A DNA stretch of 49,763 nucleotides. It comes from Nitrosomonas sp. (GTDB taxonomy: Bacteria; Pseudomonadota; Gammaproteobacteria; Burkholderiales; Nitrosomonadaceae). Under the pieces are notes generated by a model, which did no database searches, was not told the DNA's origin, and saw only the letters and a list, made by a program, of their open reading frames with translations. Of this stretch, positions 19,746 to 23,677 are shown piece by piece. The translations under genes were made by a program, and so were the position numbers. The stretch lies in NCBI GenBank assembly GCA_021774265.1, contig JAJFJG010000036.1:1-49763 (forward strand), read 5' to 3'. How positions within the stretch are numbered: position 1 is the stretch's first letter; every line of letters begins with the position of its first letter.

Positions 19746-19765
19746 CCGTAGTTTGCAAACTACGG
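19746..19765. promoter_or_regulatory. Perfect 20-bp palindrome upstream of the flavoprotein operon
   Basis: CCGTAGTTTGCAAACTACGG is a fully symmetric 20-mer, 104 bases before the first start codon of the operon. With no U-tract it is a better operator than terminator. The binding protein is unknown. Confidence 0.55.
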
Positions 19766-19814
19766 CTCAAAATCTGTTCGGTATATAAACACATGAAAAT
19801 GGAGAGAAGGCTGA

Positions 19815-19848
19815 CACCATTAATTAAGTTCTGCTTACATTAATGGTG
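19815..19848 (+). promoter_or_regulatory. Leader hairpin before the flavoprotein operon
   Basis: CACCATTAAT and ATTAATGGTG pair perfectly over 10 bp, and the stem extends inside through TAAG/CTTA past one extra C to a short TTCTG loop. It ends 21 bases before the ATG at 19870 and close to the AAGGA ribosome site, so it may affect translation or mRNA stability. Confidence 0.5.
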
Positions 19849-19869
19849 CGATGCTTCGAAAGGAAATAC

Positions 19870-20988
19870 ATGATTGAATATTTTAATACGGTAGAAAAGA
19901 TTGCTACAGAGATTGTTGCTAAAAATGCAGCTAAAGTGGATAAAGCAGGTGCATTTCCACAAGAAGCAATGGATGCACTGCGTGATGCAGGTTTGCTTGG
20001 ACTCATTAGTGCAAAGAGTGTCGGTGGTATGGGAGAAGGTCCGCGTGCTGCTGCCATCGTTATTGAACGCTTCGCTCGTGAGTGTGGGTCGACAGCGATG
20101 GTACTTTGTATGCACTATTCCGCTACAACGGTTATAGAAAAATATGCATCTGAGGAAGTTCGTAAACAGCTTGCGCAGGGCAAACATCTGGGTAGCCTGG
20201 CCTTCTCGGAGGCTGGGTCGCGTAGTCACTTCTGGACACCTGTAAGTACGGCGACAAGAGACCAGAATGGCATTCGTTTGAATGGCAAGAAAAGCTGGGT
20301 CACTTCGGCCCACCATGCAACGCTTCATGTGTGGTCAAGCAAGCCAGTTACTGCTGAGGGTGTTAGCACAATCTGGCTGGTACCGAGCAGCAGCAGCGGG
20401 ATTTCAATAGCCAATAATTTTGATGGTCTAGGATTGCGTGGCAACGACTCTACGCCAATTACCGCCGACAACACATTGATTCCAGAGCATCATATGCTCG
20501 GTGAAGATGGCAACGGTCTTGCGATCATGCTTGAAACTGTATTACCTCTATTTAGCGTCTTAACAGCCGCCACCGGAATCGGACTTATGGAGGGTGCAAC
20601 AACGGCTGCTTGTAATCACGCAGTTGAAACTCGCCATGAGCATCTTGATTCAGCGTTGTGCAATCTCCCAACTATCAGGGCTTATCTAGCACGGATGCGA
20701 ATTACAACTGATCAAGCGCGCTGTCTATGGCTCGATACGCTTCGCGCAATGGAAACTGATCGCGAAGATGCAATACTGCGCGTACTGGAATGCAAGGCTT
20801 CTTCGGGAGAGTCTGCAACCCAGGTGCTGGATACCGCGATGCGTGTTTGCGGCGGCGCTGCGTTCCGCCGTGAAGTTGGCGTGGAGAGACGGTTTCGCGA
20901 TGCCCGTGCAGGTACGGTCATGGCACCAACAACGGATCAATTGTATGACTTCATTGGTAAGGCCATTTGTGGCTTGCCAATATTTTGA
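19870..20988 (+). CDS. Acyl-CoA-dehydrogenase-fold flavoprotein
   Basis: A 372-aa member of the acyl-CoA dehydrogenase superfamily with all three regions: N-terminal helices, the middle barrel (GSLAFSEAGSRSHFW and LNGKKSWVTSA) and the C-terminal helical bundle (GGAAFRREVGVERRFRDARAGTVMAP in two parts). In true dehydrogenases the last region carries a catalytic Glu in a YEGT-like loop; here the loop reads MAPTTDQLY without it. That suggests a relative using FAD or FMN differently, such as a monooxygenase-type member. The ATG at 19870 has AAGGA upstream. The gene is followed after 11 bases by the PhnD-like gene. Confidence 0.8.
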   Translation: MIEYFNTVEKIATEIVAKNAAKVDKAGAFPQEAMDALRDAGLLGLISAKSVGGMGEGPRAAAIVIERFARECGSTAMVLCMHYSATTVIEKYASEEVRKQLAQGKHLGSLAFSEAGSRSHFWTPVSTATRDQNGIRLNGKKSWVTSAHHATLHVWSSKPVTAEGVSTIWLVPSSSSGISIANNFDGLGLRGNDSTPITADNTLIPEHHMLGEDGNGLAIMLETVLPLFSVLTAATGIGLMEGATTAACNHAVETRHEHLDSALCNLPTIRAYLARMRITTDQARCLWLDTLRAMETDREDAILRVLECKASSGESATQVLDTAMRVCGGAAFRREVGVERRFRDARAGTVMAPTTDQLYDFIGKAICGLPIF

Positions 20989-20999
20989 GAAAACAAGCC

Positions 21000-21854
21000 A
21001 TGTCTGAGACATTATTAATAGGTGCCGTCGTCTACGACCCGAAAGTTGTCACCATCTGGGATGGTTTCCAAAAATGGTTTGCACAGCACGATTTTTATTT
21101 CGACTATATCCTGTATTCAAATTATGAACAGCAAGTGGAGGGGCAGTTTGCCGGTCACTTTCATATTGCGTGGAACTCCCCGCTAGCGTGGTTACAGACC
21201 GAGCGTATTGCCACTAAAACAGGGCGTAAGACCCAGGCAATTGCCATGCGCGACACCGATTGCAATCTCACCAGCGTAATTGTCGTGAGCAGTGGTTCTT
21301 CGATTCAGTCGATCGAAGATTTGCGCGGCAAGACCGTTGCTGTAGGAGCTTCTGACTCGCCACAGGCTACATTAATACCACTTCTACACTTAGCAGAGGC
21401 GGGGCTTGAGCCGGAAAAGGATTTTTTTGTAAGACCGTTTGATGTGCTCGTAGGTAAGCACGGTGACCATATCGGGGGTGAACGTCATGCAGCCAAGGCA
21501 TTGATTGAAGGAGAAGTAGATGCGGCATGCATGATCGACGGCAATCACCTGCTGTTTTCACGGGAAGGTACGCTTCCATCAAATAGCACACGCATTCTTG
21601 CACAGACCGATGAATATGATCATTGTAATTTCACGATGCTGGATGGTATGCCTGAAGACGCTGTCGCACGTTTTTGTGAACTCTTGCTGTCAATGTCTTA
21701 CGACGACCCACAGGTAAGACCGTTGCTAGATCTTGAAGGATTAAAAATGTGGAAGTCAGGCCGTACTGAGAAATACGCACTTTTAGCCAGGGCCATCGAT
21801 CGATTTAAAACAATTGATGCATTCGTCGACAAAGTGAGCAAGTCGTGCCCATGA
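21000..21854 (+). CDS. PhnD-like substrate-binding protein without a signal peptide
   Basis: A 284-aa protein with the fold of phosphonate/phosphite ABC-transporter binding proteins: SIQSIEDLRGKTVAVGASDSPQA (in two parts, about residues 102-124) and GERHAAKALIEGEVDAACMID are typical. Such proteins are normally exported, but the start MSETLLIGAVVYDPK leads straight into the first strand with no signal peptide or lipobox. It therefore probably acts in the cytoplasm as a ligand-binding partner. The last codons overlap the next start (ATGA at 21851-21854), indicating translational coupling. No ABC permease or ATPase is nearby. Confidence 0.78.
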   Translation: MSETLLIGAVVYDPKVVTIWDGFQKWFAQHDFYFDYILYSNYEQQVEGQFAGHFHIAWNSPLAWLQTERIATKTGRKTQAIAMRDTDCNLTSVIVVSSGSSIQSIEDLRGKTVAVGASDSPQATLIPLLHLAEAGLEPEKDFFVRPFDVLVGKHGDHIGGERHAAKALIEGEVDAACMIDGNHLLFSREGTLPSNSTRILAQTDEYDHCNFTMLDGMPEDAVARFCELLLSMSYDDPQVRPLLDLEGLKMWKSGRTEKYALLARAIDRFKTIDAFVDKVSKSCP

Positions 21855-23051
21855 GCGGGCATGGCATGTGCATAGTCGAACTTGGTGACTTGGGGCTGGA
21901 TCCAAGGTGGGCATTTGCTGGTGAAACGAGTGCTGCACACAATAGCCGTGAACACTCCCGTCGCTGTTTATGGCAACGCACCTGAACTTGCTATTCATCT
22001 TCGCGCTTGGTGTCGTACGCAAGGTCACGCCATCGAAATTGCAAAAACCACAGGTGGCCCTGTCGCGGTGATACACCGTGGTAGCGCTGAAGTTGGGCGC
22101 TGGCGCGGTGCCGAATCTACTGGTGACGCCACCATTCCAGAAGAACAAGCGCACGCCTATTGGGGACTAGCGGGCCGCAGTGCGACTGTTGAAGCTGGCG
22201 CGCCAACTTTTAATTTTCCACTCGATACGCGCGTTGAAGTATGGGCCAAGGAAGTCGCAAAACTATATGCTCAGGCTGCGGCAGCTCAGTGGAACCCTGC
22301 CACAGCGATTCCGTGGGAAGAGCCTTTTGATTTGCATGATGAAGTAGAAGATGCGGTTGTACAAGTAATGACTTACTTGATCGAAAACGAAACGGCAGCA
22401 CTGGTGATTCCAGCACGGTTTGCATCACAGATACATCCACATTTTCGCGAAGTAATGCAGCTGCTCGCTATTCAAGCTGCCGACGAGGCGCGTCATATTG
22501 ATGTATTCACACGGCGCGCACTATTGCGACGCCCGAAGCTTGGCTTGTCGACTGCGGGTGGTCAGTCATCACTCAAAACATTGATTGACGAAACGGATTT
22601 CGCGCTATCAGCAATGCTGCTATCGGTACTTGGGGAAGGTAGCTTTTTGACGCTGTTATGGTTTCTACAACAGTATGCACCAGATCCAGTCACGCGACAA
22701 ATCGCGCGCCTAGTCGGGCAAGATGAAGCACGGCACGTTACATTTGGCATTGCCCATCTCACGCAACATGTACAAAAAGATCCAATGTTACTTGGACGGT
22801 TGGCGGATGCCATTGAACGCCGCCACGATATACTCGCCAATACCGCCGGACTCAATGAAGAAGTGTTCGATGCTCTCGTGTTAATCGCCGCTGGGTCATG
22901 GGAACCAGAGGCGCTACGTATTGGGTGGAATAAGGTTCAAATACTGATTGCGGATATGAACCAGGGGCGCATACATCGCTTATGCAAAGTAGGTTTTGAT
23001 GAGGCCTCTGCACAGGTATTGTCGGCGTTGCACACCAGAAATTTCATGTAA
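21851..23051 (+). CDS. TusA-like / ferritin-like diiron fusion protein (apparent frameshift near the start)
   Basis: The main frame gives an N-terminal TusA/SirA-like region (LLVKRVLHTIAVNTPVAVYG ... HLRAWCRTQGH) and then a helical ferritin-like domain with two DEARH motifs (AADEARHIDVF and GQDEARHVTFG) plus Glu in ENETAALV and LGEGSF, a plausible four-Glu/two-His diiron site. The ATG at 21851, coupled to the preceding stop, opens MSGHGMCIVELGDLGLDP in another frame; dropping one A in CCAAGG (21902-21907) joins it to GGHLLVKRV. Without this, translation must start internally, for example TTG 21882. The TusA CPxP cysteine is absent. Role unknown; probably an oxidase or oxygenase in this operon. 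Confidence 0.72.
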
Positions 23052-23280: not shown

Positions 23281-23598
23281 TTAATAAGAAACTTTCGACC
23301 CTTCTAGCCAGAGGCAATCAGAAATCAAGCACATACCGCCCAACTCTTTCATTATCAGTTGCATCTCTGCAAGCACTTTTTTTGCTTTCTCCTCTTGACA
23401 GGCAAGAATAACAACGACATTTCCATTTCTAAGAGTTATATCATTAGAATCTATAACCCCACGATTTCCTAAACCACCAGCCTGATTAATAACGGTATAG
23501 CCATGCACTTCAGTTTTCGACAACAAACTAGCTATTCTAGAGAATTTATCTTTACCTATGACTATCTCGAGTCTTTTCATTGCGATTGTATTATTCAT
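23281..23598 (-). CDS. PII-like nitrogen-regulatory-family protein
   Basis: A 105-aa protein with a PII-like trimeric fold pattern: N-terminal strand MKRLEIVIGKDKFSRIASLL, a glycine-rich T-loop area (GYTVINQAGGLGNRG) and a C-terminal NVVVILACQEEKAKKVLAEM. It lacks the Tyr51 region and C-terminal signature of GlnB/GlnK, so it belongs to the looser PII-like group that bind nucleotides or metals near transporters. I chose the ATG at 23598 because of its AGGAGA ribosome site; the open frame extends 12 codons further. The tiny lipoprotein gene lies 80 bases upstream on the same strand. Confidence 0.75.
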   Translation of the reverse strand: MNNTIAMKRLEIVIGKDKFSRIASLLSKTEVHGYTVINQAGGLGNRGVIDSNDITLRNGNVVVILACQEEKAKKVLAEMQLIMKELGGMCLISDCLWLEGSKVSY

Positions 23599-23677
23599 AA
23601 TAATTTCTCCTAAAGTTGGTTTCAGCCGCCACAAATTTTTGTGGCAGTGTATTCCAAACTACTAAAACCACACTAAA

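Follow-up and report, generated by a model that had tools for sequence, protein, structure and literature searches.

A conserved three-gene cassette of Nitrosomonas and other bacteria, with a predicted TusA-like diiron fusion protein, may take part in selenium utilisation

The closest catalogued relatives of the genes described here are the Rv1678-Rv1681 families of Mycobacterium tuberculosis, named in NCBIfam as NF049986, NF049984, NF049985 and NF049973. We found no function for them in print, and Rv1680 has been modelled on PhnD (PMC8562490). We analysed a stretch of 49,763 nucleotides from a Nitrosomonas sp. genome (GenBank assembly GCA_021774265.1, contig JAJFJG010000036.1, positions 1 to 49,763 of the forward strand; hereafter the window), in which three consecutive genes, A, B and C, encode a protein with the acyl-CoA-dehydrogenase (ACAD) fold, a cytosolic PhnD-like protein, and a predicted fusion of a TusA-like domain to a ferritin-like diiron domain. 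In the Rv1678-Rv1681 set, A and B have counterparts from the same broad families. An earlier reading of the window from its letters and open reading frames (the sequence-only reading) had noticed the three genes and knew of no described system with this set; the NCBIfam names qualify that statement in part, and we saw no assignment of the homologues to a pathway.

The other point of comparison is selenium metabolism. Type 1 mlp clusters have been proposed to salvage methyl-selenide or methyl-sulfide in anaerobes, to which their authors confine them (PMC10418091). Selenium surveys name YedE, YedF, DUF3343 and LysR_Se (PMC5322559, PMC9312934), and isochorismatase-like, ABC ATPase and cysteine-desulfurase-like genes have been described near orphan SelD (PMC5029168). 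A review of 2022 states that a high-affinity selenium transport system had not been identified so far (PMC9312934), and in our reading the supply of selenide to SelD in aerobic bacteria is poorly known. The families of A, B and C are not named in the available parts of the three surveys PMC5322559, PMC9312934 and PMC5029168, and the term 'acyl-CoA' is absent from their main texts. In the literature accessible without subscription, we recognised no published description of the A-B-C set or of a TusA-diiron fusion. Novelty appears to lie in the selenium-linked system, as the A and B families themselves are already catalogued as NCBIfam models without function.

To place the cassette among genomes, named genomes were scanned with B, which gave 423 stretches encoding relatives, and the best 80 loci were kept. 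Periplasmic PhnD-type matches to NF049985 below 120 bits were excluded from cassette membership. The order A, B, C on a single strand holds in 68 of these 80 loci, a count that includes five loci whose C is cut by a contig end and four with a gap of more than 100 bases. The neighbourhood search proposed in the sequence-only reading is thus answered: because 68 of the 80 loci carry A-B-C, its refuting condition, a lack of co-occurrence in other genomes, does not apply. Seven loci hold B and C only (five of them in Caulobacterales), one holds A and B only, and four are truncated by a contig end, three of which lose C and one A. A was found together with B in 72 of the 80. By alignment, the median gap between A and B is 14.5 bases and the median overlap of B and C is 4. 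Cassettes occur in groups that include Nitrosomonas, Myxococcota, Planctomycetota, Acidobacteriota, Binatota, Variovorax and relatives, Caulobacterales, and Acidimicrobiia. Elsewhere in the order of the window's genome, C was found in genomes G096 and G293, and other matches were weak. Among plasmid records, C of the window had no match and B had three, all actinobacterial.

Selenium genes lie directly beside the cassette in two separate settings. All six Variovorax loci have the order FdhE, selA, A, B, C, selB, followed by selD on the opposite strand and, beyond selD, by a selenate-type binding protein and a permease (ABC transporter). The formate dehydrogenase alpha gene stands ahead of FdhE in five of the six, and the record of the sixth (L110) starts inside FdhE. 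In a distant actinomycete (L253) the order along the strand is selD-selA-selB-A-B-C, and the B of this locus forms a deep branch apart from the main group in a tree of 67 rows, from which an 80% identity cut had removed the Variovorax rows, together with one outgroup on an unreliably long branch. In both L109 and L253, the sel genes score above the curated cut-offs. On a Miltoncostaea plasmid selA and selD lie about 6 kb from A-B, and C is absent there. The LysR regulator adjoining the cassette of L246 reaches 234 bits to the selenium-metabolism LysR family, whose cut-off is 250. Fourteen matches to NF049985 score between 86 and 117 bits; for 13 of them the locus was fetched (L024-L036), and every one of these is close to the Variovorax selenate-type substrate-binding protein and stands beside a permease, three of them (L025, L032, L033) with SelD in the stretch.

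The association extends to the genome level. SelD scores above cut-off in 70 of the 73 genomes behind cassette loci (48/50 and 22/23 in two sets). Within Actinomycetota, the SelD results cover G439 and G913, the latter through the SelD adjoining the cassette of L253. Among 61 Nitrosomonas-like genomes of the same genus, a SelD fusion of about 730 residues occurs in 13 and C in 11, all of them among these 13; none of the 48 genomes without the fusion has C (Fisher 1.9e-10, with shared descent ignored, as in all SelD association tests reported here). Completeness is 75% and 87% in the two fusion-bearing genomes without C. The window's own genome encodes SelD away from the cassette, on a different contig, as a 729-residue oxidoreductase-SelD fusion (L185, 8206-10392 of contig 193). 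We counted it as SelD because it scores 280 bits against a SelD cut-off of 125 and keeps the CGAK motif; its score to TIGR04369, 'fusion_not_SelD', is 465 bits, with a cut-off of 700. In Caulobacterales, SelD is present in all six cassette genomes, compared with 72 of 200 background genomes. C occurs in only one of these 200, the centre genome itself, so there is no within-order contrast for this group. MnmH stands beside SelD in L190, L193 and L200, and was confirmed in L193 and in L186 (G020, same genus). The later use of selenium in cassette genomes involves selenocysteine genes in Variovorax, and the 2-selenouridine tRNA enzyme MnmH in Caulobacterales and at least one Nitrosomonas-like genome. 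Since SelD is the partner whether selenocysteine genes or MnmH are present, we place the cassette upstream of SelD or at it.

Two further observations concern the same genomes. Many SelD genes in cassette genomes (L161-L164, L166-L184) carry one in-frame TGA, as expected of SelD selenoproteins. In one of the 11 C-bearing genomes of the same genus (G053, locus L137), A is in several pieces and B gives a short match only, so the locus looks broken or misassembled; the SelD fusion is present.

Several results weigh against a role in selenium metabolism. In the stretches fetched for 74 of the 80 loci, we detected none of selA, selB, selD and mnmH (within the window, this check covered the open reading frames scanned against family profiles). 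Three of the 73 genomes lack SelD above cut-off (G420/L090, G428/L099 Ideonella azotifigens, and G794/L079), and one of the 70 positives (G796) is a fragment. An ordinary SelD without C occurs in 19 of the 61 Nitrosomonas-like genomes. SelD is common in Planctomycetota (106/149), which makes its presence in nine of nine B-positive genomes weak (p 0.06). B of the window scores higher to the broad family TIGR01098 (67.9 bits) than to the selenate-type TIGR04553 (46.1 bits). Neither of two Bradyrhizobium-like genomes in which A-B is followed by a TusA-like/radical-SAM gene (L133, L134) has SelD above cut-off, so the tie of A and B to selenium is not universal. Finally, related species are not independent, and the Nitrosomonas pattern could be one inherited event. 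Considering both sides, the selenium link of A-B-C is well supported, with shared descent uncorrected.

The three genes of the window lie on the plus strand with 11 bp between A and B, as the sequence-only reading described and the open reading frames confirm (Table 1). A starts at the ATG that follows AAGGAAAT, at 19870; the first ATG of its frame is at 19843, and no start among the listed open reading frames lies at 19746. The reported ATGA overlap between B and C holds in part. The ATGA at 21851-21854 does overlap the stop of B, and in eight loci of the same genus (L002-L009) it is in frame with an uninterrupted C, but in this assembly its frame is not that of C, because of one extra base near 21902 relative to relatives. 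The earliest start of the open frame of C in the window is a TTG at 21882. C is uninterrupted in the nearest relative, L050, and L010, of the same genus, has an in-frame ATG that overlaps B by more bases than ATGA does. The extra base is either an assembly error or a real frame change. Substitutions relative to L050 at codon positions 1, 2 and 3 number 16, 5 and 53 in A, 16, 5 and 43 in B, and 23, 12 and 57 in C after the frame change. As they fall mostly at third positions, the three genes are under selection; this bias, together with a gene order kept across phyla, makes the operon more than a chance arrangement. The operon is real and conserved. Downstream of it, on the minus strand and convergent (23281-23604), a small P-II-like or PG0541-family-like protein is encoded.

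Table 1. Coordinates of the A-B-C cassette and of features of gene C in the window
Feature	Positions	Strand	Basis
Gene A, ACAD-fold protein, 372 residues, Rv1679/FadE16-like	19870-20988	+	Pfam ACAD domains, alignment to solved ACADs
Gene B, cytosolic PhnD-like protein (type-2 periplasmic-binding-protein fold), 284 residues, Rv1680-like	21000-21854	+	PF12974, AlphaFold2 model
Gene C, fusion of TusA-like and ferritin-like diiron domains (predicted)	21851-23051	+	homologue comparison, AlphaFold2 model of the L050 homologue
Open frame of gene C in this copy	21882-23051	+	5' part, 21851 to about 21901, in another frame
One extra base relative to relatives, frame change within C	21902-21903	+	DNA comparison with L050 and same-genus loci
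ENE motif in a helix of C (Glu178/Glu180, L050 numbering), candidate diiron ligand	22383-22391	+	conservation, alignment to VlmB homologue 6d9f
First DEARH motif of C (putative ExxH metal ligands)	22482-22496	+	sequence; aligns with DEARH of VlmB homologue 6d9f
Second DEARH motif of C (putative ExxH metal ligands)	22722-22736	+	sequence, conservation
C-terminal tail HTRNFM of C	23031-23048	+	conservation in 84 rows

Pfam matches, alignments and predicted structures bear out the folds first attributed to A, B and C. Conservation was computed on long uninterrupted sequences only (112 rows for A, 121 for B, 84 for C), after nine loci had been dropped as overlaps with larger regions; residual duplicates mean that a few genes may count twice. 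In A, the ACAD N, M and C domains (PF02771, PF02770, PF00441) are all above cut-off, and the best named family is NF049984 (Rv1679/FadE16), with 414 bits, below its curated cut-off of 600. The sequence-only reading had noted that this flavoprotein is without the usual catalytic Glu loop, correctly so: in the alignment to solved ACADs, the catalytic Glu of the canonical YEGT loop corresponds to Ala352 in MAPTTD, a position at least 90% conserved in 39 rows. By this alignment, A is without the catalytic Glu at the YEGT-loop position.

B matches PF12974 with an E-value of 2.5e-30 (106 bits, cut-off 27). Its best named family is NF049985 (Rv1680, substrate-binding-protein-like), with 230 bits, below the curated cut-off of 400, and it does not reach the PhnD equivalog (43.8 bits, cut-off 261). 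The AlphaFold2 model has a mean pLDDT of 96.7, and the closest solved folds in Foldseek are headed by PhnD and PtxB, with AioX further down the list; several solved relatives carry bound phosphite, methylphosphonate or phosphate. The absence of an export signal noticed earlier agrees with our results: none was seen in the fold model, used here in place of a signal-peptide predictor, in which the first predicted strand begins at residue 5, and seven aligned rows share one start position. No permease or ATPase family matched any of the six other open reading frames scanned between 15513 and 28342. The B of the window is 94% identical to that of a Nitrosomonas metagenome-assembled genome.

C of the window has weak matches only to named families of Pfam and NCBIfam. 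Its N-terminus had been called TusA-like in the sequence-only reading. The AlphaFold2 model of the L050 homologue (pLDDT 94.4) has a beta-alpha-beta-alpha-beta-beta domain, the TusA-like order, followed by ferritin-like helices, and the N-terminus gives a weak profile match to the TusA structures 1dcj and 3lvj (E about 0.009). The Pfam TusA profile matches C homologues with E-values from 0.00014 (L246) to 0.057, none of them above the gathering score of 28.6 bits (the best has 22.1), and no match was reported for the L117 homologue or for the window's own C frame. The CPxP cysteine of TusA is absent from C, where the alignment of N-termini has DQGGH or a similar motif. Together, the weak profile matches and the predicted L050 fold weakly suggest a TusA-like identity for this domain.

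Both DEARH motifs announced in the sequence-only reading are present; the first is at least 95% conserved, as are D, E, R and H of the second, across the 84 rows. The positions E178/E180, E212, H215, E262, E292 and H295 are also at least 95% conserved in these rows, so that C has the Glu/His residues expected of the metal ligands of a putative ferritin-like diiron oxygenase. Fold comparison with R2-like ligand-binding oxidase, VlmB and aldehyde-deformylating oxygenase gives 13-21% identity, and the ENE region aligns with the VlmB homologue. The AurF profile (PF11583, gathering score 29.6 bits) is exceeded by the homologues of L109 (34.0) and L117 (29.8), and not by those of L051 (12.7) and L246 (15.2) or by C of the window (19.8). 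C does not reach the equivalog of R2-like ligand-binding oxidase (29.3 bits, cut-off 194). The tail HTRNFM, or a close variant, is nearly invariant across phyla, last Met included, and its residues H394, T395, N397 and M399 are at least 95% conserved (84 rows).

These observations lead us to a tentative proposal, which we regard as possible though somewhat short of probable: A-B-C would serve selenium utilisation, probably in oxygen-using bacteria, by freeing selenium for SelD from a small compound. In such bacteria the cassette may thus be an undescribed step in the acquisition or handling of selenium. Capture and oxidative cleavage of a small organoselenium compound are suggested by three folds, that of oxyanion binders in B, of ACADs in A and of diiron proteins in C. 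The salvaged source would be a small organic or oxyanion form of selenium, for instance a methylated selenium compound. The flavoprotein A may oxidise it, and B may act as the cytosolic holder of a phosphonate-like oxyanion. Cleavage of the C-Se bond with O2 would fall to the diiron domain of C, with the TusA-like domain positioning the substrate. The freed selenium would go to SelD (selenophosphate synthetase), whatever its later use. What the sequences display directly is the three genes with their kept order, their domains and metal-ligand residues, and their link to selenium genes in the genomes; the ligand, cofactors, chemistry and direction of flow in this scheme are those that we infer from them.

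A biosynthetic role would require SelD as much as salvage does. Selenophosphate made by SelD would then be built into an undescribed selenium-containing small molecule or cofactor, with B binding selenophosphate as a mimic of phosphonate, and with A and C oxidising the scaffold. The likeness of B to phosphite and methylphosphonate binders is in line with such a pathway, as is that of C to VlmB and AurF, diiron enzymes of natural-product pathways, and orphan SelD with an unknown selenium trait is discussed in the available text of PMC5029168. We nevertheless consider it unlikely, given that the placement between selA and selB and the co-occurrence with selenocysteine (Sec) or selenouridine (SeU) genes fit a shared upstream role better, and that A, B and C match no selenium-transfer family in Pfam or NCBIfam.

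The loci in which A and B occur without C bear on how far the salvage proposal extends. Their third slot holds a radical SAM protein of the Rv1681 family, above cut-off in L131 and L133 and by similarity in L134, L249 and L252; L132 has a fragment of this type at the edge of the record. The order in L131, a mycobacterial plasmid, is A, B, Rv1681-type protein, and the N-terminal part of the L133 protein of this type matches TusA weakly (E 0.0042). In L130, the slot is taken by DUF2515 and another radical SAM protein. SelD was not found on the plasmids L131 and L132, for which the plasmid records were searched. Among the 13 loci of this kind inspected, GT2-like and DUF2064-like genes occur in five, L130, L133, L134, L244 and L252, the DUF2064-like one of L252 being weaker; these variants presumably resemble clusters annotated for arsenosugars. 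As side observations, the same five loci also have radical SAM or phosphorylase-like genes nearby, and the third slot holds a methionine-synthase-like and an OsmC-like protein in L244 and L256 (an actinomycete and a planctomycete).

The pattern resembles a shared A-B core whose chemistry can be exchanged. If slot 3 is interchangeable (diiron, radical SAM, or methionine-synthase-like plus OsmC), that core would be used for selenium or for sulfur depending on the lineage. In its broadest form, the salvage proposal would make A-B-C the O2-dependent counterpart of anaerobic methyl-selenide salvage and the first dedicated aerobic route in which a cytosolic binding protein captures a selenium oxyanion and a TusA-diiron enzyme cleaves C-Se bonds to supply SelD, with an A-B core serving selenium or sulfur by lineage; we consider this extended version rather doubtful.

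The same variants speak for the original interpretation, in which a soluble pathway would oxidise a phosphorus or sulfur compound and the association with selenium would be indirect. C is missing from some A-B loci, and SelD is missing as well in the two genomes of this kind that were tested (L133, L134); some A-B pairs stand near phosphorylase-like, methionine-synthase-like or OsmC-like genes. However, the SelD association of C-bearing cassettes holds in several groups and there are two separate placements in sel operons, which makes this explanation quite improbable for them. C-bearing cassettes better fit a selenium compound, whereas sulfur or another role is possible for the variants without C. 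The sequence-only reading was thus partly confirmed in its observation and partly supported in its interpretation. Protection, in which the cassette would oxidise and clear toxic excess selenide or methylselenol arising from selenium metabolism, accords with the oxidative enzyme folds, the selenium co-occurrence and the spontaneous methylation of selenide in print (PMC3511371, cited in PMC10418091), but is very improbable in view of the cassette's linkage with genes for Sec synthesis, seen in Variovorax and L253, and of a binding protein that would suggest capture of a scarce compound.

Several known systems resemble the cassette in part. R2-like ligand-binding oxidase, the azoxy synthase VlmB and aldehyde-deformylating oxygenase share the ferritin-like fold and the Glu/His ligand positions of C, and AurF is related by profile. 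To our knowledge, none of these four carries a TusA-like domain. The senABC genes are reportedly a selenium-dedicated cluster that uses a SelD homologue and has an EgtB-like enzyme. The senABC cluster of Variovorax makes selenoneine and includes the Se-glycosyltransferase SenB (PMC10891094); A, B and C match neither SenB-type Se-glycosyltransferases nor the EgtB-like family. TusA and YedF, the latter linked to selenium metabolism (PMC5322559), have the same beta-alpha-beta-alpha-beta-beta order as C, but C lacks the CPxP cysteine, and its fusion partner is a diiron domain instead of DsrE.

The type 1 mlp clusters resemble A-B-C in their strong co-occurrence with selenium genes and in that a minority of variants lacks a selenium trait and is linked to methionine salvage. 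They differ in using corrinoid methyltransferases (PMC10418091): A, B and C match no corrinoid or Mlp family, and C has an O2-type diiron fold. By the Rv1680 model, the nearest outside relatives of B are the putative selenate ABC transporter substrate-binding proteins of TIGR04553, which have a leader and a neighbouring permease, whereas B has no leader. A cassette that lies between selA and selB in Variovorax, and that accompanies SelD in several phyla, offers a concrete and testable set of proteins for the gap in selenium supply. The Rv1678-Rv1681 families differ from it in that slot 3 is a radical SAM and not a diiron protein, and A and B of the window score below their curated cut-offs; still, the Rv1681-type protein of L133 shares with C homologues the weak TusA match at its N-terminus, and the cassette suggests where the role of the Rv1679-Rv1681 families may be sought.

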